Part shown: piece after piece, positions 24,824 to 58,106 of the stretch
Numbering within the stretch: position 1 is the first letter of the stretch
Layout of the letters: each line of letters starts with the position of its first letter
Assembly: GCF_000169155.1 (NCBI RefSeq)
Contig: NZ_AAWL01000001.1
Span: forward strand, 62,001-126,000
Length of the DNA stretch: 64,000 nucleotides
DNA from: Thermosinus carboxydivorans Nor1
Lineage (GTDB): Bacteria > Bacillota > Negativicutes > Sporomusales > Thermosinaceae
Direction of reading: 5' to 3'
Made by a program: the position numbers and the translations under genes
Notes under the pieces: model-generated
What the model was told of the DNA's origin: nothing
The model's input: only the letters and a program-made list of their open reading frames with translations
The model's database searches: none

Positions 24824-24847
24824 GACGCCAACATGGCGTCTTTTTTT
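24824..24847 (+). terminator. Terminator after dcuC
   Basis: GACGCC-AACAT-GGCGTC followed by seven Ts. Confidence 0.85.
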
Positions 24848-24927: not shown

Positions 24928-25042
24928 TACAAGCAGGACTTTGATACAAATTGTCGGAATTTAAGGCATTAGAGATTAGCCGTTGGCCGAGTCGATTCTT
25001 TATAGGACGAGGCGCGGACAGCGGCCTTTAGGGAATGATGGC

Positions 25043-26554
25043 ATGAACGAACAGGACTTGCGGCCGATTGTGGAAACAAGCTATCTTAACCGGGAAAATA
25101 GCTGGCGCTACCGGGCGATTCTGCGCTACTGTTTTGTGCAGCATGAACGACTGCATCACTATGTATATCCGGAAGAAATTTACCAGCACCTGAAGGCAAG
25201 CCCCTTTTTTGCCGAATATACCGAAGACCAGCTGCAGCAGGACCTAAAGCAGCTGGTCGAGTGGAAGAACCTCATTCCTCGCCAGGAGACGGGGCGGGTA
25301 CATACGATTGAGGATTTTAAACGGAAAAAGTTTCGCTATCAATGCACGCCCTACACGATTGAAATCGAGCGGATGGTGGCGCGCCTGCAGCAGTTAGGCG
25401 ACAGTTTCGGCGGGTCGCTGGAGGCAACGCTGTTTGAACGGCTGCTTACTGCCCTTACCAGGCTGCTGGCGGAAGGCCCGTCGCTGCCGCCGGAAGAACT
25501 TTTTCGGGCCTGGGATGACCTTTACGGCCATTTTCGTTCCCTGGTCCAGAATGCTTCCGACTACCTTGCCCATCTCAAAAGCGATAAAGTGGAAGAACAG
25601 ATGCAGACCGAGGCCTTTATCGCCTATAAATCCGCATTTACCCAGTACCTGCAGAATTTTATTCTCGGCATGCAGCGCACGGCCGCCAAAATCGAGGCCG
25701 TATTGAAAAAAGCGCCAGCCGATAGGGTGAAGCTCATTGCCGAACGGCTGGCCGAATACCAGCTCAGCATTCCCCGCCTGGACAGCCAGCCCAGCCGGGA
25801 AGAATGGGTGACATTGTACCTTGACCAGTATGCCAGTTTGGCCGAGTGGTTTTTGGGGCGGCCCAACCACCCCAGTGAACTCATCACCCTCCAGAACGAA
25901 ACGACCGATACTATCCGTCGTATTGCCCGCTTTGCCCAGCGGATCAGCGAGCGCCATCAGGCTTTTCGCAGCCGGCGCCATGATTACCTCTATTTGGCGG
26001 GGTGGTTTGCCCGCACGGAGGGGTTAGACGAAGCTCACCGGCTGGCGGCGATGTTGTTTGGCGTACCCCATTCGCGTCATTTGTATGCCCAGCCGCGCGC
26101 GAGCGACGACTTTGACTTGACGGTTTGGGCCGAACCGCCAACCATAGTAACGACCGCGCCCCGCCTGCCTGGTATGCGGGAACGGAGCCGGCCGGGAGCG
26201 CTCATTGACCGCCGCGCCGAAAAAGAGGCGGCGCTGGCCGCGTATATTCGCGCCCAGCACGACCGGGAAAGGCTGATTGACCAGCTTATTGTCGACAACA
26301 AAATCGTGCTGGCCGACCTGCCGGAGGTTGACCCGCATGTGCGCAAGACCTTGCTGGCCTGGATTGCCCGCTGCATGCAGCGCGAAGACCGCACCATCCA
26401 GACGGAAGCGGGCAGACGCATCCGGCTGGTAACCGCCCCGGGCGGCCACCGGGTAGTTTTGCGCAGTGCTGACGGATGGCTGGAACTGCCCGCGTTTATT
26501 ATTGAATTCGTCGACGCCCGGCCGGCTATGAAGGCAGGTGAGGCCCGTGGCTGA
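25043..26554 (+). CDS. jetA: Wadjet JetA (DUF2397/TIGR02677 type, kleisin-like)
   Basis: A 503-residue protein starting MNEQDLRPIVETSYLNRENS. Winged-helix-like N-terminus (YRAILRYCFVQHERLHHYVY, then EEIYQHL), a long helical middle with Gln/Leu-rich segments, and a C-terminal ERLIDQLIVDNKIVLADLPE region match the DUF2397 family. These are the kleisin-like subunits of SMC-type Wadjet complexes. ATG at 25043 is chosen over an upstream TTG (24983) because family similarity starts there. It is the first of four overlapping or closely spaced genes. In the known mechanism, JetABC extrudes DNA loops and detects small circular DNA. Confidence 0.85.
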   Translation: MNEQDLRPIVETSYLNRENSWRYRAILRYCFVQHERLHHYVYPEEIYQHLKASPFFAEYTEDQLQQDLKQLVEWKNLIPRQETGRVHTIEDFKRKKFRYQCTPYTIEIERMVARLQQLGDSFGGSLEATLFERLLTALTRLLAEGPSLPPEELFRAWDDLYGHFRSLVQNASDYLAHLKSDKVEEQMQTEAFIAYKSAFTQYLQNFILGMQRTAAKIEAVLKKAPADRVKLIAERLAEYQLSIPRLDSQPSREEWVTLYLDQYASLAEWFLGRPNHPSELITLQNETTDTIRRIARFAQRISERHQAFRSRRHDYLYLAGWFARTEGLDEAHRLAAMLFGVPHSRHLYAQPRASDDFDLTVWAEPPTIVTTAPRLPGMRERSRPGALIDRRAEKEAALAAYIRAQHDRERLIDQLIVDNKIVLADLPEVDPHVRKTLLAWIARCMQREDRTIQTEAGRRIRLVTAPGGHRVVLRSADGWLELPAFIIEFVDARPAMKAGEARG

Positions 26555-27713
26555 GATGGAAGAAGTGCGGGAGGCGTTGGCGCTGCTACTAGAGAACTAC
26601 TGGATTGTTCGGGAAGAAGCCCCGGAGCAGTATAATCTCATTCGCCGGCATGAGGCTCATTTGCGGCGCTATTTTTTGGAAAAATGCGGCTGGCGGTTGA
26701 TGGCGACACCGCAATTTTACAAGCTGGAAAAAATTCCGGCCCAGCCGGCGTCCTGGATGGGTATTCAAGAGTTTAGCCATCCCCGAGACTACGCGCTTTT
26801 GTGCTGTGTGTTAGCTTTTTTGGAAGAAAAAAGCGTAAATGAACAGTTTTTGCTCAGTGATTTGTGCGAAAGTTTGCTCGCGCTTTATCCGCACGAAGCG
26901 GACGAACGGCTCAATTGGGAAAGTTACGAGCATCGCCGGTCGCTGGTGCGGGCGCTTAAGTTCGCCGTGGAACGTGGCCTTGTCCGTCTGGTTGACGGCG
27001 ACAGCGAACAGTTCGCCCTGCGGGCGGAAAGCGAAGCACTGTATGAAGTGACGGTGCTGGCCCGCTATTTTCTGCGCTCATACCCCAAGGATCTCCATCA
27101 GTACAAGTCGTTGGCCGAACTGCAGTCAGCCGAGCTGTTTGACGACGAGGCGACAACGGGGCGCGGGCGGCGGGCCCGGGTTTACCGGCAGCTCTTGCTT
27201 ACGGCGGCGTACAATGCTGCCGACGCCCGGCCGGAAGATTTCCTCTATTTGCGGAATATGCACCGCCGGCTGCGGGACGAGCTGGAGAGCTATACGGGGC
27301 TGCAGTTTGAGCTCTATAAAGACTGTGTCCTACTCACTAGTCCGGAGCGGACGAACTGGTGCAAACAGATTTTCCCCTTTTATCAAAGCGGCCTCCACAC
27401 CGTTATTCTGCACTTGGCCAGTTTTTGCCGCGACCGCTGGCCGGCCGGCGAGGGTTGGCAGCAGAGCTTTAGCCCGGTAGCATTTGAGCGGCTGGTCGGC
27501 GAATGTCGTGAATGCTATGGCGCCGGGTGGACGAAGGAATATCGCACGGCAACTCTCAGCCGGCTGGCGGCGGAAGTGTTAGCCGAACTGGAGGGGTGGA
27601 ATATGGCGGCTTATGATCCGGAAACCGGCTTTATCACGCTCAGGCCGGCGCTGGCAAGGCTGGCCGGGCGTTATCCGGACGGCTGGCCGTCAAGGTCCGA
27701 GCCAGCAGACTAA
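26547..27713 (+). CDS. jetB: Wadjet JetB (DUF2398/TIGR02678 type, KITE-like)
   Basis: A protein of about 388 residues matching DUF2398: an N-terminal EEVREALALLLENYWIVREE, then QYNLIRRHEAHLRRYFLEKC and a GWRLMATPQFYKLEKIP block, which is the family's hallmark opening. A winged-helix region (LFAFLEEK-like helices, YEHRRSLVRALKFAVERGLV) follows. It would be the KITE-type partner that bridges JetA and the JetC heads. The start overlaps the jetA stop; GTG at 26547, GTG at 26538 and ATG at 26556 are all possible, and 26547 gives the best spacing to AGGTG. It is the second gene of the operon. Confidence 0.83.
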   Translation: MAEMEEVREALALLLENYWIVREEAPEQYNLIRRHEAHLRRYFLEKCGWRLMATPQFYKLEKIPAQPASWMGIQEFSHPRDYALLCCVLAFLEEKSVNEQFLLSDLCESLLALYPHEADERLNWESYEHRRSLVRALKFAVERGLVRLVDGDSEQFALRAESEALYEVTVLARYFLRSYPKDLHQYKSLAELQSAELFDDEATTGRGRRARVYRQLLLTAAYNAADARPEDFLYLRNMHRRLRDELESYTGLQFELYKDCVLLTSPERTNWCKQIFPFYQSGLHTVILHLASFCRDRWPAGEGWQQSFSPVAFERLVGECRECYGAGWTKEYRTATLSRLAAEVLAELEGWNMAAYDPETGFITLRPALARLAGRYPDGWPSRSEPAD

Positions 27714-27741
27714 ACAGCCGACCCTAAAGTGAGGGATGAAA

Positions 27742-30700
27742 ATGACAAGGCAAACCGCCCGGGAGCGGGACCAATGGCGCCTGAGTCGCGCCGGGCTAAT
27801 AAACTTCTGGTATTATGACGATGAAGAATTTCATTTTGCCGATGGCCGGCTGCTCTTGCGCGGCGCTAACGGCTCCGGCAAGTCGGTGACTATGCAGAGC
27901 CTGATTACCGTGCTGCTGGACGGGGTAAAGACACCTGACCGGCTAGACAGTTTTGGGTCGCGATCACGCCGGATGGAAGACTATCTTTTAGGGGAAAAAG
28001 AGCTGGTCAATCGCGATGAACGGACCGGCTATCTCTATCTTGAATACAAGCGCCGCGGCAGCGCGCAGTACCTGACCACTGGCATCGGACTGCAGGCCCG
28101 CCGCGGCAGCAGTCTCGACTTTTGGGGATTTGTCATCACCGATAACCGGCGGATTAGACATGATCTTTTGCTATACAAAGAGGAGATTAATCCCTTGGAC
28201 GGCACGGTCGAGCGCGTTCCTCTGACGCGGGCGGAGCTGGAAAGGGCAATTGGGTCCGGTGGGCAGGTGGTGCGCAGCCAGAAGGAGTATATGGAACTGG
28301 TAAACCGCCACATTTTTGGCTTTGCCTCGCTTGAGCAGTATGAGGAACTGATGAAATTGCTCATCCAGCTGCGCAGCCCGAAACTGTCCAAGGATTTTAA
28401 ACCCAGCGTAATTTACGATATATTGAACGAAGCGCTGCCGCCTTTGTCGGACGAGGAACTGCGCCCGTTGTCGGAAACGATCGAGAGTATGCAGCGCACC
28501 AAAGACCAGATTGAGCAGCTGGAACGGGACAAGCAGGCCCTCGATCGGTTGTGCCGGAACTATGACCTCTACAATACCTATGTGCTGGCGGAAAAGGCCG
28601 ATTTGGCCCACAAAGCAGAGCGGCGGCTTGCCAAACTGCAGCGCGAACAGGAAGAACTCCGCCAGCGGCTGGCGGAAGATGGCCGCCAATTGGTCGAGGC
28701 AAGACAGCGCCGGGAGGAGCTAAAGCGGGAAGAGACCGTACTGGCCCGAGAGCGCGAAGACCTGCAGCAGCACGATGCTTTTCGGGCCCAGCAGCAGAAA
28801 CAGCAGCACGAAACCCAGCTTAATCAGGTTACCGCACTGCAGCGGGACAAGGCGGCCAAACTGGCGGAAAAACAGCGGCGCGAACGGCAGGAACAGCACA
28901 AGTTGCGCGACTATGAGGCGAGGGCGGAGGAGTGCCGCGCTCGCCAGGAAGAACTGCTGCAAGATATGAACGATGCCGCCGGTCAGGCGGCTTTTGCCGA
29001 GCATAAAGCGCTAGCCGGCGCGTTGGCTGAAGGGAACGCCGCTTTTTCATTCGCCGCTTGGCGCCGGGCCGCCGGCAGCTATAGCGGCCGGTTGAGCGAA
29101 GTGCTGGGGCTGCTTCGGCGCCAGGCCGAGCTGCAGCTGCGCCGGCAGGAAATTGACAAAGAGCTGGGCGAGGAGCGCCGGGTGTTGGACGAATACCGCG
29201 CTGAATACCGTCGCCTGGAACAGCAGTTTAGCGAAGCCCGCGACCAGCTGCTTGCGGACCTGCATTATTGGCGGCAGCAGCATGGCCGGTGGCTGCCGCT
29301 CGCGCAGGACGAACTACGCGATGCGGCGCAAGCCATTCAGGGCTTGTACGAAACCCGGGCCTGGCCGGATGTGGAGGCCCCGCTGGCTGCCGCTTACGGC
29401 CGGCGCGTGCAGGTGATAAACCAGGAACTGGGTCTTATTAATGCCGAGCTAAAGGTACTGGAAGAAGAGGAGCGGGAGCTGACGGCCGCGCTGAATGACT
29501 GGCGCGCCCGGCGCGAGCCGGAACCGCCGCGGCTGAGCGACGCGCAGGCGGCACGGGCGCTATTGGCTGAACGCAATATTCCCTTTTTGCCGTTCTACGC
29601 CGCGGTTGAGTTCAACCCCGACGTTTCTCCGGACATGCGCGAACGGATCGAGGCCGCCCTCACCGATATGGGGCTTTTGGATGCGCTCATTGTGCCCCGG
29701 CAGCGGCGGCAGGACATTCCCCCGGACATTTACGGCGCCGTCATTCAGCCAGCGCCACAAATTATGGCGGTGACGCTGGCCGATTACCTTTATCCCACGC
29801 CGGTTGACGGCGTAGCGGTGACAGCCGCCGATATCGATGACGTACTCCGCAGCATTATCGTCGAAGATGTAAAGCTTTGGGGCGAAGCGGCGGAAGACGG
29901 CGCGGGCGCCGCTCTTGCCGCGAATGGCGCCTACTGCATCGGGCCGGTGACAGGCAGAGCTCCCCGCCGCCAGACGGCCATGTTTATTGGCCGGCAGGCG
30001 CGCGAGGCGTACCGGCGTCGGCAAATTGCCGCGCTGGAAGAACAGCTGGCGGCCCTGGCGCTTAAGCAGGAAGCGCTTTATGGACGGGCGGCCGAGCTGC
30101 AGGAAACGCTGGAGCGCGCCAGCCAGGCCAAGGCCAATTTTCCCGCCGATACGGCGCTTCGTGCTTTGCACCACGAGAAGCTGGCCGTGGCCGCCAATAT
30201 TTCGCGTCAGGAGCAGGCCGTTGAACGGGTGGACGCCCGGCTCCGCGCGGTTGTCCGCGACCTGCAGGAGCTGCGCGGTGCGCTTGCGCAGGCCAGCGCC
30301 GGCCTTGCGCTGCCGCTGCGGGAAGGGGACTATGCCGCGGCCGTGCAGGCAATGGCCGACTACCAGGCCAGTCTGCACGAGCTGGAATTATGTTGTCAGG
30401 ACTATACCAACCTTATGGCCAACGCCCGGAGGTGTCGGGAATTTTTGACCGATATCCGGCAGGAAGTGGATGACTTAAAAGGCGAGCTACTGGTTTTGGA
30501 CGGCCAGGCCGCCCAGCTGCGTCTGGCCATTGCCCACCTGGAAAGCCGTCTGCAGGAACTGGGTGCGGACGAACTCCAGGCGCGCATCCGCAACGTGGCC
30601 AGACGGCTGGACGAAATTCCGGCGGAAACGGCTGCGGTGATTGAGGCGATTGTCACCCTGCAGGCCAGTATCGAAACCGGCGAGCGGCGGCTGGCGCAGC

Positions 30701-31986
30701 TGACTGAGAGCTGTGCTTTCCTGGACCAGGTATGCCGGTGCTGGCAGCAGGCGGTGGAGGACGAGCTGAAATTGGGCCTTGTCTATCCTGGGGAGGGAAC
30801 GTGGCCGACGGTTTCGGCTATTATCCAGGAAAAAGGCGGTATCCTGAAACAGGATCGCCTGAACCGGACGACGGTCACCGGCCGCTTGAGCGAGTCTTTT
30901 TATGCCGAGAACAATGTGCTGATGGAATACCGGATGCAGCTTGAGCCGATGACGGCTGAGTCGTACGGGCTACCTGAGTTGCCGGCAGACGTTGATGACA
31001 GCGGCGAACTGGCGGGGGAACTGGACAGGCTGCGCGAGAAGCGGCAGCGCCAGGTCATTACCCTGGACTATGAAGGCCGCCGACTAAACCCGTATCAGCT
31101 CCGGGAAGCGCTGGACCGACAGCTTGACATGCTGCGGTTGGTGTTGTCCGAGAAGGACAAAGAATTATATGAAGAAGTCATCCTCAATAACATCGGTCGT
31201 CTCATCAACCGGCGGATTAACGCCGCCGAGCAATGGGTCGAGGATATGAACCGCTTGATGCGCCAGCGTGATACGTCCAGCGGTTTGAGGTTTAAGCTGG
31301 AATGGAAAGCCAGGCCGGCGGAGCAAGATGACGAGCTGGATACTGAGGAATTGGTGCGGCTCTTACATGCCGACCCGACAGCGCTGCGGGACGACGACCT
31401 CAGCAAAATCGAGCGCCATTTTAAGGCGCGGATTGAGCGGGCCAAGCAGGCCAGCGACGGCGGGGGGCAAGGGGCGGAAAGCGCCACGACCTTTCAGCAG
31501 GCAGTGCGGGAGGTGCTCGATTACCGCCGGTGGTTTCAGTTCCGGCTGTATTATGAGCAGGCCGGCCTGACGTGGCGGGAGCTGACCGACCGGGCATTCT
31601 TTAGATTTAGCGGCGGGGAAAAGGCGATGGCCATGTATATTCCGCTCTTTTCGGCTGTTTATTCGCGCTATCAGGAAGCGCGGTACGACGCTCCCTATAT
31701 TATCACTCTGGACGAAGCCTTTGCCGGCGTGGACGAAAACAATATCCGCGACATGTTTGCCTTGGTGGAACAGTTAGGCTTTAATTACATCATGAACTCG
31801 CAGGCGTTGTGGGGCGATTATGATGTGGTGCCGGCCCTGACGGTGTACGAGCTGGTCCGTCCCAAAAACAGCCCGTATGTGACGGTGGTGCGTTACCACT
31901 GGAACGGCCAAGCGCGGTCCTTAGCCGTAACCGGCGAGGACGATGGCGGCCTGTTCGAAGTGGCCGCAGCCACGCAAACAGATTAG
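27742..31986 (+). CDS. jetC: Wadjet JetC (SMC/MukB-like ATPase, TIGR02680 type)
   Basis: A 1414-residue SMC-like motor. Walker A is LLRGANGSGKSVTMQSL near residues 40-56. Long coiled coils run from about 245 to 600 and 740 to 1020 (dense Gln/Arg/Glu heptads), broken by a globular hinge-like region (about 600-740). The C-terminal head carries the ABC signature RFSGGEKAMAMYIPLFS and Walker B YIITLDEAFAGVDENN. ATG at 27742 is 7 nt after GTGAGGG. With JetA and JetB it would form the DNA-translocating complex that recognises plasmid-sized circles. Length fits TIGR02680 members (about 1350-1400). Confidence 0.9.
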   Translation: MTRQTARERDQWRLSRAGLINFWYYDDEEFHFADGRLLLRGANGSGKSVTMQSLITVLLDGVKTPDRLDSFGSRSRRMEDYLLGEKELVNRDERTGYLYLEYKRRGSAQYLTTGIGLQARRGSSLDFWGFVITDNRRIRHDLLLYKEEINPLDGTVERVPLTRAELERAIGSGGQVVRSQKEYMELVNRHIFGFASLEQYEELMKLLIQLRSPKLSKDFKPSVIYDILNEALPPLSDEELRPLSETIESMQRTKDQIEQLERDKQALDRLCRNYDLYNTYVLAEKADLAHKAERRLAKLQREQEELRQRLAEDGRQLVEARQRREELKREETVLAREREDLQQHDAFRAQQQKQQHETQLNQVTALQRDKAAKLAEKQRRERQEQHKLRDYEARAEECRARQEELLQDMNDAAGQAAFAEHKALAGALAEGNAAFSFAAWRRAAGSYSGRLSEVLGLLRRQAELQLRRQEIDKELGEERRVLDEYRAEYRRLEQQFSEARDQLLADLHYWRQQHGRWLPLAQDELRDAAQAIQGLYETRAWPDVEAPLAAAYGRRVQVINQELGLINAELKVLEEEERELTAALNDWRARREPEPPRLSDAQAARALLAERNIPFLPFYAAVEFNPDVSPDMRERIEAALTDMGLLDALIVPRQRRQDIPPDIYGAVIQPAPQIMAVTLADYLYPTPVDGVAVTAADIDDVLRSIIVEDVKLWGEAAEDGAGAALAANGAYCIGPVTGRAPRRQTAMFIGRQAREAYRRRQIAALEEQLAALALKQEALYGRAAELQETLERASQAKANFPADTALRALHHEKLAVAANISRQEQAVERVDARLRAVVRDLQELRGALAQASAGLALPLREGDYAAAVQAMADYQASLHELELCCQDYTNLMANARRCREFLTDIRQEVDDLKGELLVLDGQAAQLRLAIAHLESRLQELGADELQARIRNVARRLDEIPAETAAVIEAIVTLQASIETGERRLAQLTESCAFLDQVCRCWQQAVEDELKLGLVYPGEGTWPTVSAIIQEKGGILKQDRLNRTTVTGRLSESFYAENNVLMEYRMQLEPMTAESYGLPELPADVDDSGELAGELDRLREKRQRQVITLDYEGRRLNPYQLREALDRQLDMLRLVLSEKDKELYEEVILNNIGRLINRRINAAEQWVEDMNRLMRQRDTSSGLRFKLEWKARPAEQDDELDTEELVRLLHADPTALRDDDLSKIERHFKARIERAKQASDGGGQGAESATTFQQAVREVLDYRRWFQFRLYYEQAGLTWRELTDRAFFRFSGGEKAMAMYIPLFSAVYSRYQEARYDAPYIITLDEAFAGVDENNIRDMFALVEQLGFNYIMNSQALWGDYDVVPALTVYELVRPKNSPYVTVVRYHWNGQARSLAVTGEDDGGLFEVAAATQTD

Positions 31987-31995
31987 GGGGCGTTT

Positions 31996-33375
31996 ATGGA
32001 TCGGGAAGAACTATTGACAGCAGCGGCCGCTTATTTTGGCCGGCCGGGTTTTCACCGGCTGCTGGCGGGTTTGGCCGCTAAATATCGGAGTTTGAACCGG
32101 TTAGGGGGCGTGGTCGTACTAAACGACCCCACCGCTGAAGAACGGGCCGAACTGGAAGCATTGCTGCGCCGCCGCCTGGCGCCCGGGGCTATCCGTGTAT
32201 CGGCCCGGGAGTTTGCCGCCGCGCTGGCGGCGACCAAGTTTGGCGCCCTTGACCCGAAAGAAGTATTGGAAAGATGGTTGGGCAGCGAGCTAATCAGTAA
32301 CCAGGAACGCCGCCGGCGGCGCTGGCGGTGCAGGGCGATGCTCCTTGAGCGGCTAACGGCGCGGTTTCCTCACCCGTTTTGCCAAAAATGGCTGCAAGCG
32401 CTGCTGGCCAAAGAGACGAACATCCGGTGGGCGCCGGACGGCAATGTAGCGCCGGCGTTTGTCGCCGATTTGGAGCTGGCTTTGCAGGCCATCAGCCGGT
32501 TGCCGGACGAGTATCAGCGCCTGCCCGTATTTGCCCAAAAGGTGTGCGGCGACCCGCACGGGTTGGACAGCGACCGCGACGCAGGCAAGCTGTTTTTGGT
32601 GGCGTTGCGCTTTCTGCGAAACGAAGAAGCGAAGACCGGCCCGGATCCGGATCCGGATAACGACCGACCGCTGTCGTCAGCCGAGGAAGTGGGCGAGCTG
32701 TTATATCATTTCCGCTTGCTGCGCGATGATGTGCTTAATTTTGCCACCTGCTACGGTCTGGCCGCCTATGCCGGCGCGAGCGAACTCATCTACTGGCGGG
32801 CGGCGGCCGCGGCCGGCGCGCCCTTAAACATTCCCTTGCGCGAGCTTGTCCGGGTTACGGCAGTAAGGCCGCTCGCGGCGCCGGCCCGGCCTGATGATTT
32901 GTTTGACGTTTATCTGGTGGAAAACTCCGGGGTCTTTTCCGCTTTGCTTGACGCGGTCACAGCGGATAGAAACGCTGCGGCCGCGCCAACTGGCGCGGCG
33001 CGCCCGTTAGTCTGCCTGCACGGGCAGTTTAAGCTGGCTTCCTGGGCGCTGCTTGATCGCCTTATTGCCAGCGGTGCCGTTCTTCACTATTCCGGTGATT
33101 TCGACCCAGAAGGGCTGCAGATGGCTCAGAAACTATTATGCCGCTATCCCGGCCGGGTGCGCCTGTGGCGGATGACGCCCGCTGATTATGCGGCCGCCCG
33201 GCCGGCAGCGCCGCTGGACGAGCGGCGGCTGAAAAAGCTGGCCGCCGTGGACCATCCCGTACTGGCGCCGTTGGCAAAGTATATTGCCGCCCGGCGCCTG
33301 GCGGCGTATCAGGAAGGGATTTTGCCGCTTTTGGCAGCTGATTTAGCTTGCTTGGCATCAGGTGTTGGCGGGTAG
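31996..33375 (+). CDS. jetD: Wadjet JetD (DUF3323-DUF2399/TIGR02679 type nuclease)
   Basis: A 459-residue protein with a DUF3323-like N-terminal region and a C-terminal DUF2399 domain that adopts a TOPRIM-like fold. The acidic motif LHYSGDFDPEGLQMAQKL near residue 365 is the expected metal-binding Asp cluster, preceded by a conserved Glu in VYLVENSGVFSALL. JetD is the topoisomerase VI-like endonuclease that cleaves DNA trapped by JetABC. AGGGGG precedes the ATG, 9 nt after jetC. No clear terminator follows; a perfect 15-bp palindrome (TTTAGAATTTCTAAA) lies at 33406-33420. Confidence 0.87.
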   Translation: MDREELLTAAAAYFGRPGFHRLLAGLAAKYRSLNRLGGVVVLNDPTAEERAELEALLRRRLAPGAIRVSAREFAAALAATKFGALDPKEVLERWLGSELISNQERRRRRWRCRAMLLERLTARFPHPFCQKWLQALLAKETNIRWAPDGNVAPAFVADLELALQAISRLPDEYQRLPVFAQKVCGDPHGLDSDRDAGKLFLVALRFLRNEEAKTGPDPDPDNDRPLSSAEEVGELLYHFRLLRDDVLNFATCYGLAAYAGASELIYWRAAAAAGAPLNIPLRELVRVTAVRPLAAPARPDDLFDVYLVENSGVFSALLDAVTADRNAAAAPTGAARPLVCLHGQFKLASWALLDRLIASGAVLHYSGDFDPEGLQMAQKLLCRYPGRVRLWRMTPADYAAARPAAPLDERRLKKLAAVDHPVLAPLAKYIAARRLAAYQEGILPLLAADLACLASGVGG

Positions 33376-33436
33376 AGACCTTGGGTAGTGCATTTGCTAT
33401 TGCAATTTAGAATTTCTAAATATATTTAAAATATAC

Positions 33437-33465
33437 TTGTGTGTCATATCAATATGTGCTATAAT
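33437..33465 (+). promoter_or_regulatory. Promoter of glcT
   Basis: TTGTGT (33437-33442), a 17-bp spacer and TATAAT (33460-33465) with extended TGC. The start site would fall about 20 nt before the RAT. Confidence 0.7.
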
Positions 33466-33489
33466 TCAAACCAAAAGATTGATATATTC

Positions 33490-33518
33490 TGGCGTGTTAC
33501 GGTAACGGCATTAGCCAG
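33490..33518 (+). promoter_or_regulatory. Ribonucleic antiterminator (RAT) in the glcT leader
   Basis: TGGCGTGTTACGGTAACGGC followed by ATTAGCCAG resembles LicT/GlcT-type RAT sequences (GTGTTAC core, paired GGC/GCC ends). Its 3' end overlaps the 5' arm of the following terminator, so RAT folding and the terminator exclude each other. Confidence 0.65.
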
Positions 33519-33572
33519 TAAGAATAGTTGTTGTTGGTTTAGCCAATAATTATTCTTACTGGTTATTATTTT
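33515..33572 (+). terminator. Leader terminator controlling glcT
   Basis: CCAGTAAGAATA (33515-33526) pairs with TATTCTTACTGG (33551-33562), with inner TTGG/CCAA pairing, and is followed by TTATTATTTTT. GlcT bound to the RAT would disrupt it. Confidence 0.85.
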
Positions 33573-33592
33573 TGGCAGAGGGGGCTTAGCAA

Positions 33593-34444
33593 ATGGCTAT
33601 ATCTCAAGGCCCATTTACCGTGCAACGGACATTAAGCAATAATGCTGTCTTAGCCAAAACGGTCGAAGGAAACGATGTCATCCTTTTGGGTAAAGGCTTG
33701 GGATTTGGCCGCAAGGAAGGAGATTTATTAGTCAGCCCAAACTATGAAAAAATTTTTGTTGTTCCTGAAGGCGGTGAAAAGCAAGCTTTACATTTGATAG
33801 ACCAGCTTGATCCGGCCGTTATACAGATTACGGAAGAAATTATAAAGTTAGTGAAACTCAAACTGGGAGAAGTTTTACATTCCCGTATATATTTAGGATT
33901 GGCAGACCATATCAATTTCGCCTTAATTCGCCTTTCGCAAGGGATGGAGATTAAAAATCCTTTTATTTCTGAGATTGAAGTCATGTATCCAGAAGAGTTC
34001 AGTATTGCTAAGCAAGGGGCGAATTTGATTGCTGAAAGGCTAAACGTTACCATCCCGCGTGAGGAAATCGGGTTTATTGCCCTACACCTGCATGCGGCTA
34101 GACATAACCGACCTGTTGGCGAAAGTTTAAAATATTCGGAAATTATCAATCAGGTGGTAAACTACCTGGAGACTAAGGTGGGGCCGCTAAAAGAATGTGG
34201 GGGGCTTAGTTACGCACGGCTGCTTTCTCATTTACAGAGCTGTATTAACAGGTTGATAACCAATAAGACGATAGAAAATCCAATTATCGAGCAACTAAAG
34301 GAAAAGTTTGCGGAATCTTATCAGCTGGCCCGACAGGTGGGCGATATTATAGGGAAAGGTTTAGGAATAGAAGTTCCGGATGCCGAGATTGGATATTTAA
34401 CGATACACTTGGAACGGCTTCGGAGCCACAGTAGCGAGAACTAA
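33593..34444 (+). CDS. glcT: GlcT/LicT-type transcriptional antiterminator (BglG family)
   Basis: A 283-residue BglG-family antiterminator. An N-terminal co-antiterminator RNA-binding domain (1-60: QRTLSNNAVLAK, GKGLGFGRKEGD) precedes two PTS regulation domains with phosphorylatable His in LADHINFALIRL, LHLHAARHN, LLSHLQSC and LTIHLERL. It sits directly before the glucose EIICBA gene, which fits GlcT. PTS phosphorylation state would switch its binding to RAT hairpins. Unusually, it has a RAT and terminator in front of itself as well as in front of ptsG, so it probably controls its own synthesis. Confidence 0.92.
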   Translation: MAISQGPFTVQRTLSNNAVLAKTVEGNDVILLGKGLGFGRKEGDLLVSPNYEKIFVVPEGGEKQALHLIDQLDPAVIQITEEIIKLVKLKLGEVLHSRIYLGLADHINFALIRLSQGMEIKNPFISEIEVMYPEEFSIAKQGANLIAERLNVTIPREEIGFIALHLHAARHNRPVGESLKYSEIINQVVNYLETKVGPLKECGGLSYARLLSHLQSCINRLITNKTIENPIIEQLKEKFAESYQLARQVGDIIGKGLGIEVPDAEIGYLTIHLERLRSHSSEN

Positions 34445-34458
34445 ATAGGCGATAAGCA

Positions 34459-34486
34459 ACGTGTTACTGGTAAAGCAGGCATGAGT
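34459..34486 (+). promoter_or_regulatory. RAT in front of ptsG
   Basis: ACGTGTTACTGGTAAAGCAG followed by GCATGAGT closely resembles the Bacillus ptsG RAT bound by GlcT. It shares its last 8 bases with the 5' arm of the terminator that follows. Confidence 0.8.
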
Positions 34487-34529
34487 TGTTTCCCAAGGGA
34501 GAATTCCCTTGCGGCAACTCATGCTTTTT
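34479..34529 (+). terminator. Leader terminator controlling ptsG
   Basis: GCATGAGTTG (34479-34488) pairs with CAACTCATGC (34515-34524), with an inner AAGGGA/TCCCTT hairpin, followed by TTTTT. It is the off-state partner of the ptsG RAT. Confidence 0.88.
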
Positions 34530-34587
34530 CATTTTAGGTATGCGAGGTTTAATTTCCATTAAAACTACTAAAAGGAAGGGGAGAACG

Positions 34588-36627
34588 ATGTTAAAAAAGT
34601 CATTTGGCATTCTTCAACAGGTAGGTAAGTCATTAATGCTTCCCGTGGCGCTATTGCCGGCGGCAGGTATATTATTGGCCTGCGGCAATGCATTGCAAAA
34701 TCCAGCAATGATTAATATTCTTCCGGCTCTGGATAATCAGGTGATTCATGCTTTTGCCAAAGTAATGGAGCAGGCTGGCGGAATTATTTTCGCAAATCTT
34801 TCCTTATTATTTGCCGTCGGTGTGGCGGTAGGTTTGTCAGGCGGTGAAGGGGTTGCGGGGCTAGCAGCCATTGTTGGTTTTCTTATTATGAATGTGACCA
34901 TGGGACTGGTGACAGGTATTACCCCGGACATGGTGACCGGGAAAAATCCAGCGTATAGTAATGTGTTGGGCATTCCAACGCTGCAAACCGGTGTTTTTGG
35001 CGGTATTATCGTTGGTATTATGGCTGCCCAAATATACAAACGTTTCTATAATATTGAGATGCCTTCCTATTTGGGATTTTTTGCTGGGAAACGGTTTGTG
35101 CCAATTGTTACTGCTGCTGCGGCTCTTATGCTGGGAATTGCGATGACTTTTGTTTGGCCGCCGATACAAGAAGGGCTCAATTCATTTTCACGTAATATGA
35201 TCGATACTAATAAGACGGCTGCGGCTTTTATTTTTGGGGTCATCGAACGTGCGCTTATACCTTTTGGCTTGCACCATATATTTTATAATCCTTTCTGGTA
35301 TCAGTTCGGGGAGTATGTCAGCAAAAGCGGCCAAATAATCAATGGTGACCAGAGCATTTTCTTTGCCCAGCTAAAAGACGGAGTTCCGTTTACAGCCGGC
35401 ACCTTTATGACAGGTAAATTCCCGTTCATGATGTTTGGTCTGCCCGCAGCGGCGCTGGCTATTTATCATGAGGCCAAACCGGAGAAAAAAGCCAGTGTTG
35501 CCGGTATTATGGCTTCGGCAGCCTTGACCTCTTTCTTAACTGGTATTACGGAACCGATTGAGTTTTCCTTCTTGTTTGTTGCTCCGGTACTGTTCGGAAT
35601 CCATACTATTTTTGCTGGTCTTTCGTTTATGTTTATGCATATTTTAAATGTAAAAATCGGCATGACATTTTCTGGCGGGGTAATTGATTATTTGCTTTTT
35701 GGCGTTATTCCGAATCGTACGGCCTGGTGGCTGGTAATTCCTGTTGGTTTGGTTTTCTCTGTCATTTACTACTTCGGTTTCCGGTTTGCTATCCGTACCT
35801 GGGATCTAAAGACCCCCGGCAGAGAAGACGAAGCAGAAAATATAAATAGCGCTGCGACCAATGCAAGTTTGGCAGCGGAAGTGCTGCAGGCTTTGGGTGG
35901 CAAAGAGAATCTGGTAGACGTGGATGCCTGCATTACCCGTTTGCGTGTAAGTGTAAAGAATATTGGCAGTGTGGATCAAGATAAACTTAAAAAGTTAGGC
36001 GCAGCTGGCGTCATGGTAATAGGTGACAATTTGCAAGTTGTTTTCGGTCCTAAATCAGACTCAATAAAAACGCAGATTATAGACATTATTAATGGTCAAA
36101 CGCTTCAGGTTGCGGACAATGCCCGTGTAGCCATGACAAATACTGAAGCGGCAGCACCTCAAATAAAACGAGTATATGAAGGTTTTGTTGCGCCGGTGGA
36201 CGGGAAACTTTTGAGTTTAAACAATGTCCCTGATCAAGTATTTTCACAAAAAGTGATGGGCGACGGGTTTGCCATTGAACCTGTTAACGGCGAGGTAGTG
36301 TCGCCAGTGGATGGCACAGTCAGCGTGGTGCACAGTAGCAAACATGCTGTCGGCATTACCGCTAATAACGGGCTGGAACTAATAATCCATTTTGGTATTG
36401 ATACCGTTAACTTAAAGGGCGAGGGATTTACAACGCTTGTAAATGTCGGTGATAAAGTAAAAGCCGGGCAACCGATCCTTAAGGTGGATTTGGAATTGGT
36501 GAAAGGAAAAGTGGCGTCCGTTATAACTCCCATTATTTTTACAAATCTTGGAGCCAAAAGCGTTGCTGTTCAGGCCGGGGAGAATGTGAAACGGGGACAA
36601 GCCATGAATATTTTAGTAGACCAATAA
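34588..36627 (+). CDS. ptsG: PTS glucose transporter EIICBA
   Basis: A 679-residue membrane permease and phosphotransferase in the order IIC-IIB-IIA. IIC (1-410) has the glucose-family blocks PVALLPAAGILLACGNALQN, LGFFAGKRFVPIVTA, IPFGLHHIFYNPFWY and FLTGITEPIEFSFLFVAPVL. IIB carries the phosphocysteine in VDACITRLRVSV near residue 450. IIA has the active His in LIIHFGIDTVNLKGEGF. It closely resembles Bacillus PtsG. ATG at 34588 follows GGAAGGGGAG; an upstream in-frame ATG at 34486 lies inside the terminator. It takes up glucose as glucose-6-phosphate. Expression would depend on GlcT antitermination. Confidence 0.95.
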   Translation: MLKKSFGILQQVGKSLMLPVALLPAAGILLACGNALQNPAMINILPALDNQVIHAFAKVMEQAGGIIFANLSLLFAVGVAVGLSGGEGVAGLAAIVGFLIMNVTMGLVTGITPDMVTGKNPAYSNVLGIPTLQTGVFGGIIVGIMAAQIYKRFYNIEMPSYLGFFAGKRFVPIVTAAAALMLGIAMTFVWPPIQEGLNSFSRNMIDTNKTAAAFIFGVIERALIPFGLHHIFYNPFWYQFGEYVSKSGQIINGDQSIFFAQLKDGVPFTAGTFMTGKFPFMMFGLPAAALAIYHEAKPEKKASVAGIMASAALTSFLTGITEPIEFSFLFVAPVLFGIHTIFAGLSFMFMHILNVKIGMTFSGGVIDYLLFGVIPNRTAWWLVIPVGLVFSVIYYFGFRFAIRTWDLKTPGREDEAENINSAATNASLAAEVLQALGGKENLVDVDACITRLRVSVKNIGSVDQDKLKKLGAAGVMVIGDNLQVVFGPKSDSIKTQIIDIINGQTLQVADNARVAMTNTEAAAPQIKRVYEGFVAPVDGKLLSLNNVPDQVFSQKVMGDGFAIEPVNGEVVSPVDGTVSVVHSSKHAVGITANNGLELIIHFGIDTVNLKGEGFTTLVNVGDKVKAGQPILKVDLELVKGKVASVITPIIFTNLGAKSVAVQAGENVKRGQAMNILVDQ

Positions 36628-36696
36628 CACCAGATCATCAAGCCGACAAATCAGCATCACAAGTAATGAACCGATTTTTAACCGCCAAGATAATCA

Positions 36697-36767
36697 TGCC
36701 AATAATTGGCACCACAAAGCATGAAAAGTAAGTTTTTGAACCGATTCTCGCGCGACAACTGTCGCGC
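36697..36767. repeat. Palindromic segment between ptsG and hprK
   Basis: The 300-bp gap holds no gene but is structured. TGCCAATAATTGGCA is a perfect 15-bp palindrome (36697-36711), and GCGCGACA-AC-TGTCGCGC (36750-36767) is an 8-bp stem. GAACCGATT occurs twice (36668, 36738). The following text (CCTTTGCGTCCTTTGCGG near 36775, GTGTCCTCTGTGG near 36862) has the look of a decayed dispersed intergenic repeat. Function unknown. Confidence 0.5.
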
Positions 36768-36931
36768 ACGTAGCCCTTTGCGTCCTTTGCGGTTTAACGC
36801 TTTTTAGGGTAGGACGCAGAGACGTGATATTCATCGCGCAAAATTTAAAAACTATTTTCCGTGTCCTCTGTGGTTGCCTTTAACGATTTTCCAGGTAGAC
36901 ACATTACTAAAGAATAAGAAGAGTGGTCAAA

Positions 36932-37840
36932 ATGCTGCAGGTTAATCAACTGGTAGACGAATTCGAATTTGAGGTTAAAGCGGGACATGGTGGATTAAAT
37001 AAAGAAATTACGGATTATAGCTTAAAACGCCCTGGTGCGGAATTGATGGGTTTTTTAACGTATTTGACACCAAAGCGTATCCAGATATACGGACGAACTG
37101 AGCTAGGACTTATTCAACAGTTTGACGAGGCGATGCGGCGGGAACGTCTTGCCCGGGTAATGGTTCCTGAAGTCCCTTGTGTAATTGTTACCCGTGGGTT
37201 GCCGGTACCTGTGGAGTTATTGGCGTTAGCCAATGAACGTAATATTCCGCTGTTAACGACGCATCGTTCTACGACTCGCCTATTCTCTCTTTTAATTCGC
37301 TATCTTACCAATCGTTTGGCTCCCAGTATGCTTATTCACGGTGTACTGGTAGATGTATATGGCGTAGGTGTCCTAATTACCGGGGAAAGTGGGATCGGTA
37401 AAAGCGAAACAGCGTTGGAACTCATAAAAGATGGACATTTGTTAGTGGCCGATGATGCTGTGGAAGTGCGGCGGGTCGACGAAGAGAATATACGAGGTAC
37501 TGCTCCAAGTCATATTCGCCATTTGCTCGAACTAAGAGGGTTGGGGATTTTGGATGTCACGTTGTTGTTTGGTGCAGGTTCCGTCCGGGATGAGAAGGAT
37601 ATTCATTTAATTGTTCATCTGGAGGAATGGCAACAAGGGAAAATGTACGACCGCTTAGGGTTTGACCCTCCTCAGACGCGCGAGATTTTAGGGATTGCTG
37701 TTCCCGAAATCACGTTGCCGGTCCGTCCGGGACGAAATATGGCCAGCATGATCGAAGTTGCCGTGATGCAGCAGCGGTTACGAGGTTATCAAGCCGGCTA
37801 TCGTCCAAGATTAGCGCCAATAAATAAAAACAATATTTAA
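36932..37840 (+). CDS. hprK: HPr kinase/phosphorylase
   Basis: A 302-residue HprK. The N-terminal domain (about 1-130) is followed by the kinase domain with Walker A TGESGIGKSETALEL near residue 151, ADDAVEVRRV, the signature LELRGLGILDV and the C-terminal loop VRPGRNMASMIEVAVMQQRL. It phosphorylates HPr on Ser46 and reverses this, coupling glycolytic state to catabolite repression. ATG at 36932 has GAAGAG 8 nt upstream; GTG at 36923 is an alternative. It lies directly upstream of its substrate gene ptsH. Confidence 0.95.
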   Translation: MLQVNQLVDEFEFEVKAGHGGLNKEITDYSLKRPGAELMGFLTYLTPKRIQIYGRTELGLIQQFDEAMRRERLARVMVPEVPCVIVTRGLPVPVELLALANERNIPLLTTHRSTTRLFSLLIRYLTNRLAPSMLIHGVLVDVYGVGVLITGESGIGKSETALELIKDGHLLVADDAVEVRRVDEENIRGTAPSHIRHLLELRGLGILDVTLLFGAGSVRDEKDIHLIVHLEEWQQGKMYDRLGFDPPQTREILGIAVPEITLPVRPGRNMASMIEVAVMQQRLRGYQAGYRPRLAPINKNNI

Positions 37841-37857
37841 CGAAGGGAATGTTGATG

Positions 37858-38118
37858 ATGATAGAAAGAACAGTAATGCTTAAAAATGCTAACGGCCTGC
37901 ATGCGCGGCCGGCCGCTTTGCTGGTGCAAAAGGCTAGCGCCTTTCCGTGTGAAATTACTTTGCGCAAAGGGGACAAACAGGCCAATGCGAAAAGTATCAT
38001 GAGCGTAATTGCCTTGGGGATAGGGCCAAACGAGCAGTTAACTATCGTTGCGGCAGGCGAGCAAGCTGCGGAAGCGTTGCAAGTCATTGGTGACTTTCTG
38101 GAGGCATTGACGGAGTAA
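37858..38118 (+). CDS. ptsH: Phosphocarrier protein HPr
   Basis: An 86-residue HPr. Starting at ATG 37858 (MIERTVMLKNANGLHARPAA) puts the EI-phosphorylated His exactly at position 15 and the HprK target Ser in KSIMSVIALGIG exactly at 46, the canonical numbering. This supports the third of three clustered ATGs (37849, 37855, 37858). It receives phosphate from EI and passes it to EIICBA. The presence of Ser46 beside hprK shows the Firmicute-type regulatory HPr, not an energy-coupling-only form. Confidence 0.95.
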   Translation: MIERTVMLKNANGLHARPAALLVQKASAFPCEITLRKGDKQANAKSIMSVIALGIGPNEQLTIVAAGEQAAEALQVIGDFLEALTE

Positions 38119-38134
38119 AAGGAGGGGGACAACG

Positions 38135-39871
38135 ATGCAATATCGGGGAATTGCGGCCGCGCCTGGCTATGCTTTGGGGACAGCCTTTTTATTACAAGAA
38201 AAAGAAATACCGGTAATTAAACAAAACATCGCGGCGGAAGACACAGGGGCGGAAATAGATCGCCTTGAAAAAGCACTCTGTCAGGCGATTCGGGAAATTG
38301 AAAAGATACAGGAGGAGACCCGTCAAAAACTTGGTGACGATAAAGCTGCCATTTTTGCGGCTCATATCATGCTGCTTACTGATCCCGAATATATCGGCAA
38401 TATCAAACAAAAGATTGTGGCGGAGGCAATCAATGCAGAAGCGGCTGTTAAAGAGGTGACCGACCATTTTTTAAACATGTTTGCCTGCATTGAAGATGAG
38501 TATCTTCGGGAACGGGCCGCTGACTTGCGGGATGTCAGCCAACGCCTTCTCAAGCGTTTGCAGGGTATACAGTCGGTTGATCTGGCTGATATTGCTGAGA
38601 ATGTCATTTTGTGCGCTCATGATTTGACCCCTTCGGATACGGCCCAGTTAGACCGGAACAAGGTGGTTGGTTTCGTAACAAATAGCGGCGGGCGTACTTC
38701 GCATTCCGCCATCATGGCCCGTTCGCTGGAAATTCCTGCAGTTGTCGGGCTGATGGATATTACGGCAAAAGTTAGACCGGGAGATTTTGTGATTGTTGAT
38801 GGTAATGAAGGAACTGTTTTTATTAACCCGCCCAATGAACTGATCGAACAATACCGGGAAAAGAAAGCTCAATTTATAAAGCGGCAAAAAGAAGCCAAAA
38901 AGCTGGTAAACGAGCCTTCGATTACCCTTGACGGGACAAAAGTAGAACTAGTAGCAAATATTGGCAATCCGGAAGATGCCAAATGGGCGGTAGCCAACGG
39001 CGCTGAAGGAATCGGCTTATTTCGGACAGAGTTTTTATATATGGGCAGAAATGAACTCCCTTCCGAGGAAGAACAATTTGAAGCCTATAAAACAGTTGTG
39101 ACCATGTTTGGCGCACAACGGCCGATAGTCATTCGCACCCTGGATATTGGCGGCGATAAAGAATTATCATATATGGATATGCCTAAGGAAAAAAACCCTT
39201 TCTTAGGATACCGTGCTATTCGCCTTTGCCTCGACCGGCCTGAAATTTTTAAGACCCAGCTTCGAGCGATTTTGCGCGCCAGTGCCTATGGAAACATCAA
39301 ACTGATGTACCCGATGATTGCCACGTTGCAGGAGCTTAGAGCAGCCAACCAGATTCTTGAAGCGGCTAAACAAGAATTGGCCAGTGAAAACATTCCTTTT
39401 AACACAGCAATGGAAGTCGGCATCATGGTTGAAATTCCTGCCGTCGCTGTTTTAGCCGATCAGTTCGCAACAGAAGTTGATTTCTTCAGTATCGGAACAA
39501 ATGATCTGATTCAGTATACTATGGCTGCTGACCGTATGAATGAAAAAGTATCTTATCTCTATCAACCGTTTAATCCAGCGGTGCTGCGCTTGATCCAAGG
39601 GGTGATTGCGGCGGCGCATAAAGCGGGAAAATGGGTTGGAATGTGTGGGGAGATGGCTGGCGATTTAGCTGCAATTCCCATCCTGCTGGGCATGGGCCTT
39701 GATGAATTTAGTATGAGCGCAAACGCAATTTTACCTGCCCGTGCTTTATTAAGGCAGTTAACGCAAAAAGATGCGCAGCGCATTGCCCAAGCTGTCCTAA
39801 AGATGGATGATGCCAAAGAAATAAGAGATTTTGTGGAACAAGCGGTTTCGGCTATTGTTACGTTGCGGTGA
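38135..39871 (+). CDS. ptsI: PTS enzyme I
   Basis: A 578-residue phosphoenolpyruvate-protein phosphotransferase. The HPr-binding and phosphohistidine domain carries the active His in GGRTSHSAIMARSLEIPAVV near residue 190. The PEP-binding TIM barrel shows GIGLFRTEFLYMGR, IRTLDIGGDKEL, SIGTNDLIQYTMAADR and the catalytic Cys in GMCGEMAGD near residue 503. AAAGGAGGGG gives a strong ribosome site 16 nt after ptsH. It supplies phosphate to HPr for glucose uptake. Confidence 0.97.
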   Translation: MQYRGIAAAPGYALGTAFLLQEKEIPVIKQNIAAEDTGAEIDRLEKALCQAIREIEKIQEETRQKLGDDKAAIFAAHIMLLTDPEYIGNIKQKIVAEAINAEAAVKEVTDHFLNMFACIEDEYLRERAADLRDVSQRLLKRLQGIQSVDLADIAENVILCAHDLTPSDTAQLDRNKVVGFVTNSGGRTSHSAIMARSLEIPAVVGLMDITAKVRPGDFVIVDGNEGTVFINPPNELIEQYREKKAQFIKRQKEAKKLVNEPSITLDGTKVELVANIGNPEDAKWAVANGAEGIGLFRTEFLYMGRNELPSEEEQFEAYKTVVTMFGAQRPIVIRTLDIGGDKELSYMDMPKEKNPFLGYRAIRLCLDRPEIFKTQLRAILRASAYGNIKLMYPMIATLQELRAANQILEAAKQELASENIPFNTAMEVGIMVEIPAVAVLADQFATEVDFFSIGTNDLIQYTMAADRMNEKVSYLYQPFNPAVLRLIQGVIAAAHKAGKWVGMCGEMAGDLAAIPILLGMGLDEFSMSANAILPARALLRQLTQKDAQRIAQAVLKMDDAKEIRDFVEQAVSAIVTLR

Positions 39872-39929
39872 GCAGCGGAATTTACCCACATGCAGGACTG
39901 CTTATAAAAATTCGGTTTGTACCTCATAA

Positions 39930-40919
<990 letters not shown>

Positions 40920-41003
40920 TAAAAGACCAATTAGAACCGCTTTAGAAGGAAGAAGACGATCGAGCCGGCTATTGTTTTTCGCTTCAATCCCTTTGATCAG
41001 TCC

Positions 41004-41039
41004 CAAGGGCCTGCTGATGCAATCATCAGCAGGCCCTTG
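41004..41039. terminator. Strong stem-loop between pfkA and the small minus-strand gene
   Basis: CAAGGGCCTGCTGATG pairs perfectly over 16 bp with CATCAGCAGGCCCTTG around CAAT. It is 4 nt past the stop of the small minus-strand gene. Neither side has a good T-run, so it may act as an RNA 3' stabiliser or a weak terminator for both genes. Confidence 0.6.
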
Positions 41040-57905: not shown

Positions 57906-57982
57906 CTGCCCGTAGCTCAGCTGGATAGAGCGTTTGACTACGAATCAAAAGGTCAGAGGTTCGAATCCTCTCGGGCAGGCCA
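57906..57982 (+). tRNA. tRNA-Arg (anticodon ACG)
   Basis: A 77-nt cloverleaf: acceptor CTGCCCG/CGGGCAG, D stem GCTC/GAGC, anticodon stem TTTGA/TCAAA with loop CTACGAA (anticodon ACG), T arm AGAGG-TTCGAAT-CCTCT, and encoded CCA. ACG would be read with inosine at position 34. Confidence 0.95.
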
Positions 57983-58106
57983 TTTTTGCGAATTAATAGC
58001 ACAGGCTTTTACCAGGCCTGTGCTTTTTGTTATAACGGGATAGCGGAAAGTGGACCAACACATTGCCGCAGCTCGGCGCGGCAAGAAAAACGGCAGGAGG
58101 CATAGC

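Follow-up and report, generated by a model that had tools for sequence, protein, structure and literature searches.

A type II Wadjet operon beside a variable phosphotransferase block in Thermosinus carboxydivorans Nor1

Our analysis of a stretch of 64,000 nucleotides from the genome of Thermosinus carboxydivorans Nor1 (hereafter the window) indicated that its jetABCD operon is, with high probability, a resident and presumably functional type II Wadjet system that would restrict incoming plasmids, judging from the sequence, from a structure prediction and from analogy with characterized relatives. The direct evidence consists of the gene content, the gene order, the protein families, the intact motifs, the predicted JetD fold, the conservation and the purifying selection. 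What the analysis adds to an initial annotation of the window, in which the operon had been labelled type III, is a corrected type (II instead of III) and a clearer genomic setting.

Gene content and Wadjet type

The four genes are contiguous on the forward strand from position 25043 to 33375 in the order jetA-jetB-jetC-jetD, the arrangement expected of type II Wadjet, and encode a kleisin-like subunit (jetA, 25043..26554, 503 amino acids), a KITE-like subunit (jetB, 26538..27713, 391 amino acids), an SMC/MukB-like ATPase (jetC, 27736..31986, 1416 amino acids) and a TOPRIM nuclease (jetD, 31996..33375, 459 amino acids). In the list of open reading frames, jetA and jetB overlap by 17 nt, and gaps of 22 nt and 9 nt separate jetB from jetC and jetC from jetD, respectively. 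Comparison with homologues placed the start of jetA at the ATG at 25043, which they have in common; the alternative start at 24983 was rejected as a merely longer mechanical reading. A terminator-like hairpin (24824..24840, forward strand) lies 3' of dcuC and 5' of the operon, in line with the earlier remark that dcuC is terminated before the operon. The only Rfam elements found between 20000 and 43000 were two tRNA-Ser genes.

All four products scored above the curated cut-offs of their NCBIfam models, namely TIGR02677 for JetA (E = 6e-118), TIGR02678 for JetB (E = 3e-87), TIGR02680 for JetC (E = 1e-299) and TIGR02679 for JetD (E = 6e-68), and the Pfam domains were DUF2397 in JetA, DUF2398 in JetB, SbcC_Walker_B (PF13558) in JetC and DUF3323 with DUF2399 in JetD. 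Because the open reading frames and the HMM families over cut-off agree with it, the first reading of four tightly spaced kleisin, KITE, SMC and TOPRIM genes was correct in gene content and coordinates, and the HMM comparison that it had proposed (DUF2397, DUF2398, TIGR02680 and TIGR02679/DUF2399) matched all four proteins.

The best PADLOC models were JetA2 (E = 4e-186), JetB2 (E = 2e-134), JetC2 (E = 0) and JetD2 (E = 1e-129). In addition, JetA, JetB and JetC each matched exactly one distinct PDB sequence, over the full length, and these were the JetA, JetB and JetC chains of entries 9qe0/9qe1 (E = 8.6e-122, 2.5e-84 and 7.7e-291, respectively), which we infer to be the type II Wadjet complex of Neobacillus vireti; the sequence search returned no PDB match for JetD. 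Since the best PADLOC models and the matches of JetABC to 9qe0/9qe1 agree, the operon is, by sequence, Wadjet type II and not type III. A type III system, as the initial annotation had it, would have to be reconciled with four best models of the Jet-2 set, with a single and weak type-3 match (JetD3, E = 0.0026, versus E = 1e-129 for JetD2) and with the resemblance of JetABC to the 9qe0/9qe1 structure, itself probably of type II, and we give this reading next to no credence. Among the type-I models, JetB1 and JetC1 gave weak matches, and JetA1 and JetD1 gave none.

SMC families are related to each other, and a housekeeping condensin of the MukBEF or MksBEF kind, organising the chromosome and not serving defence, could account for the weak match of JetB to MksE (24.7 bits, E = 3.4e-5, below the cut-off of 27) and for the generic SMC matches of JetC, which were likewise weak and below cut-off. 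However, the HMM scans found no match over cut-off to MukB, MukE, MukF or MksE families among the four proteins, although ordinary MukBEF/condensin matches, named in the initial annotation as evidence against its reading, were specifically looked for. The full-length matches to Wadjet families, the co-encoded TOPRIM nuclease and the patchy presence of TIGR02680, which was over cut-off in 7 of the 60 nearest-relative genomes (the window's own counted) and in 27 genomes of a 300-genome sample of the class, make a condensin extremely improbable and argue for Wadjet.

Integrity of the genes and predicted fold of JetD

The ATPase motifs of JetC were compared with those of seven relatives, with identity down to 45%. 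In the Walker A motif GANGSGKS (residues 43-50; 27862..27885), G43 and N45-S50 were invariant, as were the ABC signature FSGGEKAM (residues 1291-1298; 31606..31629) and, in the Walker B motif YIITLDEAF (31696..31722), which belongs to the PF13558 domain, residues D1326 and E1327. In JetD, the TOPRIM glutamate E309 of the motif VENS (32920..32922) and D368, D370, P371, E372 and G373 of the motif DFDPEG (33097..33114) were invariant in 74 JetD proteins, together with R175, P187, H188, D191, N310, G343, Y365, Y438, Q439 and E440 (numbering of the window protein); all of these motifs are on the forward strand. Broken Walker or TOPRIM residues, the second kind of contrary evidence that had been named at the outset, were looked for as well, and the residues proved intact, as had been read from the sequence at first.

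No internal stop codon was found in jetA-jetD, either in the window copy or in that of the congener (genome G001), and the dN/dS ratios between these two were 0.077 (jetA), 0.138 (jetB), 0.130 (jetC) and 0.276 (jetD), from which, with both copies free of internal stops, we conclude that the operon is under purifying selection. The ratio of jetD is above those of the other three genes mainly through its low dS of 0.127. All four genes appear to be complete and intact; the families over cut-off, the matches to 9qe0/9qe1, the dN/dS ratios and the predicted fold of JetD bear out the earlier statement to this effect.

The AlphaFold2 model of JetD had a mean pLDDT of 93.9 and a pTM of 0.87. It resembled subunit A of topoisomerase VI (1d3y; Z = 16.1, 243 aligned residues, rmsd 3.8 A), the nuclease MksG of Corynebacterium glutamicum (8b7f; Z = 14.4, 227 aligned residues, rmsd 5.6 A) and the type I JetD of Pseudomonas aeruginosa (7til; Z = 12.3, 268 aligned residues, rmsd 12.8 A), and the large rmsd to the last structure suggests a different domain arrangement. 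The published JetD and MksG proteins are without the 5Y-CAP tyrosine (PMC10586767, PMC10123090).

Genomic setting and the neighbouring PTS block

The congener keeps the operon with 93-96% protein identity and has the same upstream epimerase and dcuC genes. Nucleotide similarity between the two genomes ends at 33336, just short of the jetD stop codon, within the final codons of the gene, and restarts at 41004. The intervening block of 7.67 kb (33337..41003, forward strand), which lies outside the Wadjet operon and is absent from the congener, encodes GlcT, PtsG, HPr kinase, HPr, PtsI and PfkA in the order glcT-ptsG-hprK-HPr-ptsI-pfkA, and its glcT and hprK had no counterpart anywhere in the congener genome. 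The third-position GC of the block is 0.42-0.44 (0.56 for HPr) versus 0.64-0.75 in the surrounding genes and 0.67-0.71 in jetABCD, so that the compositional distinctness of the PTS neighbour, already pointed out in the initial annotation, is confirmed. Direct or inverted repeats of at least 9 bases were not found at the ends of the block, and no transposase was recognised in it. The congener has a strong hairpin directly 3' of jetD; the matching hairpin of the window (41005..41038, forward strand) has been displaced by the block and lies 7.6 kb away, behind it.

The simplest reading of the two sequences would be that a Wadjet operon already in place acquired the PTS block at its 3' end; loss of the block from the congener is a less likely alternative, a grading based on composition and on the comparison of two genomes. 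As judged from this alignment, the variable segment is the PTS/glycolysis block and not the Wadjet operon. Six order-level relatives retain DUF3870-epimerase-dcuC or just dcuC, and a search of the order-level relatives for an empty Wadjet site gave no clean one, because the genes flanking the other side of the operon never adjoin dcuC in these six. In the synteny comparison that had been proposed for deciding whether the operon is an insertion, the operon and its upstream genes were shared by the congener, and the variable element was the PTS block.

Owing to the junction with the block, approximately the last 13 codons of jetD differ from their counterparts in the congener; they lie at the extreme end of the conserved family region, the match to the HMM extending to residue 450 of 459. 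This change of the 3' end could in principle affect JetD, and a junction inside the last jetD codons, together with a post-jetD hairpin that in the window sits 7.6 kb off, is what might be expected of a decayed or silenced system in which JetD or the expression of jetD is impaired. On the other hand, jetD is open to residue 459, the invariant residues, including Y438-Q439-E440, precede the junction, and the C-terminal tail of JetD is variable among homologues; we consider decay very unlikely and retain the reading of a probably functional system.

Several observations concern the surroundings of the operon and of its relatives. A strong hairpin at 33500-33565 (CCAGTAAGAATA...TATTCTTACTGG), just 5' of glcT, is possibly the regulatory terminator/antiterminator of that gene and had no Rfam match. 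In the congener, the C-terminal part of a tyrosine recombinase (locus L014, 18043-18680) is flanked by the epimerase gene on one side and, on the other, by a stretch matching the window's second tRNA-Ser; it may be a remnant of integration at tRNA-Ser and is absent from the window. Directly after a tRNA-Arg gene, the window encodes a DUF1156 DNA adenine methylase of 928 amino acids (57906-60836; PADLOC HmaB, E = 9.5e-293), for which the adjoining open reading frames offered no obvious HmaA or HmaC partner.

In a genome from another family of the order (G015; locus L018, 8009-19897), a type II Wadjet operon adjoins hprK-glcT-ptsG, which are divergent and located 5' of jetA; compared with the window, hprK is 81% identical and glcT just 34%. 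That a glucose-PTS/HPr-kinase block recurs near type II Wadjet through a functional or regulatory link from sugar status to plasmid defence, for instance in the form of read-through coupling between the two operons, is a very doubtful proposition.

Distribution

A scan of GTDB yielded at least 490 confirmed loci, of which 80, mainly from Bacillota, were kept for comparison; among the loci obtained, the nearest named relatives came from Negativicutes/Sporomusaceae assemblies. In 72 of these 80 loci, all four genes were present on a single strand and arranged A-B-C-D, and most of the remaining loci were cut by contig ends. Related JetC sequences also occurred on 24 plasmid records, mostly of Streptomyces. 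Elsewhere in the order the operon occupies different places, and a varied genomic location is usual for defence systems. The operon of the window is an ordinary new example, shared with the sister species and common in the class. With it, the known type II Wadjets, of which there are already hundreds, gain one well-preserved member. It is a candidate obstacle to transforming the host with plasmids, and it supplies a further sequence for comparing type II JetD, of which sequence searching found no solved chain.

Two Wadjet loci deserve separate mention. In Sulfidibacter corallicola (L095, 2334-10778), a type II-like Wadjet has jetD upstream and a longer open reading frame that contains jetB, and jetA was not recognised in it. 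In another genome (G038; locus L019, 329-9647), type II Wadjet adjoins a type I-C CRISPR-Cas cluster (Cas3, Cas5c, Cas8c, Cas7 and Cas1).

Proposed mode of action

By analogy with its relatives, JetA (kleisin), JetB (KITE) and JetC (SMC ATPase) would form an ATP-driven, loop-extruding motor acting on DNA without sequence specificity; completed extrusion of a small circle would activate the TOPRIM nuclease JetD, which would then cut the circle, and incoming plasmids would be restricted in this way. Loop extrusion, the sensing of size and circularity, cleavage and plasmid restriction are taken over from published Wadjet work, in which the extrusion of DNA loops and the cut by JetD have been described for type I (PMC10586767; see also PMC10123090) and the cleavage of circular DNA for the type II system nvJET (PMC12647877).

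Comparison with known systems

The closest known system is nvJET of N. vireti LMG 21834, which has the same subunit families, with JetA, JetB and JetC alignable end to end and a similarly long JetC (1371 amino acids versus 1416 here). It differs in its host, which belongs to a lineage other than Negativicutes, and it has been purified and cleaves circular DNA (PMC12647877). A hinge without a central channel, as in nvJET, is among the features that define type II Wadjet. The initial annotation had called its architecture less studied, a remark explained by most of the published work being on type I (PMC10586767); it holds relative to type I only, since the type II Wadjet of N. vireti has been obtained in purified form and cleaves circles, and a structural description of it is cited in PMC12647877 (ref. 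30 there).

Type I Wadjet and MksBEFG (E. coli GF4-3, P. aeruginosa PA14 and C. glutamicum) have the same composition of kleisin, KITE, SMC and TOPRIM nuclease, and their JetD fold resembles the one predicted here (8b7f, 7til). They differ in their families, TIGR02680 not being over cut-off in the C. glutamicum control genome, and in the length of the type I JetC models, which comprise about 1100-1150 positions versus the 1416 amino acids of JetC here. With topoisomerase VI subunit A and Spo11, the modelled JetD appears to have the TopoVI-A fold in common over residues ~125-459 (Z = 13.5-16.1), but JetD is without a TopoVI-B partner and works with an SMC motor instead.
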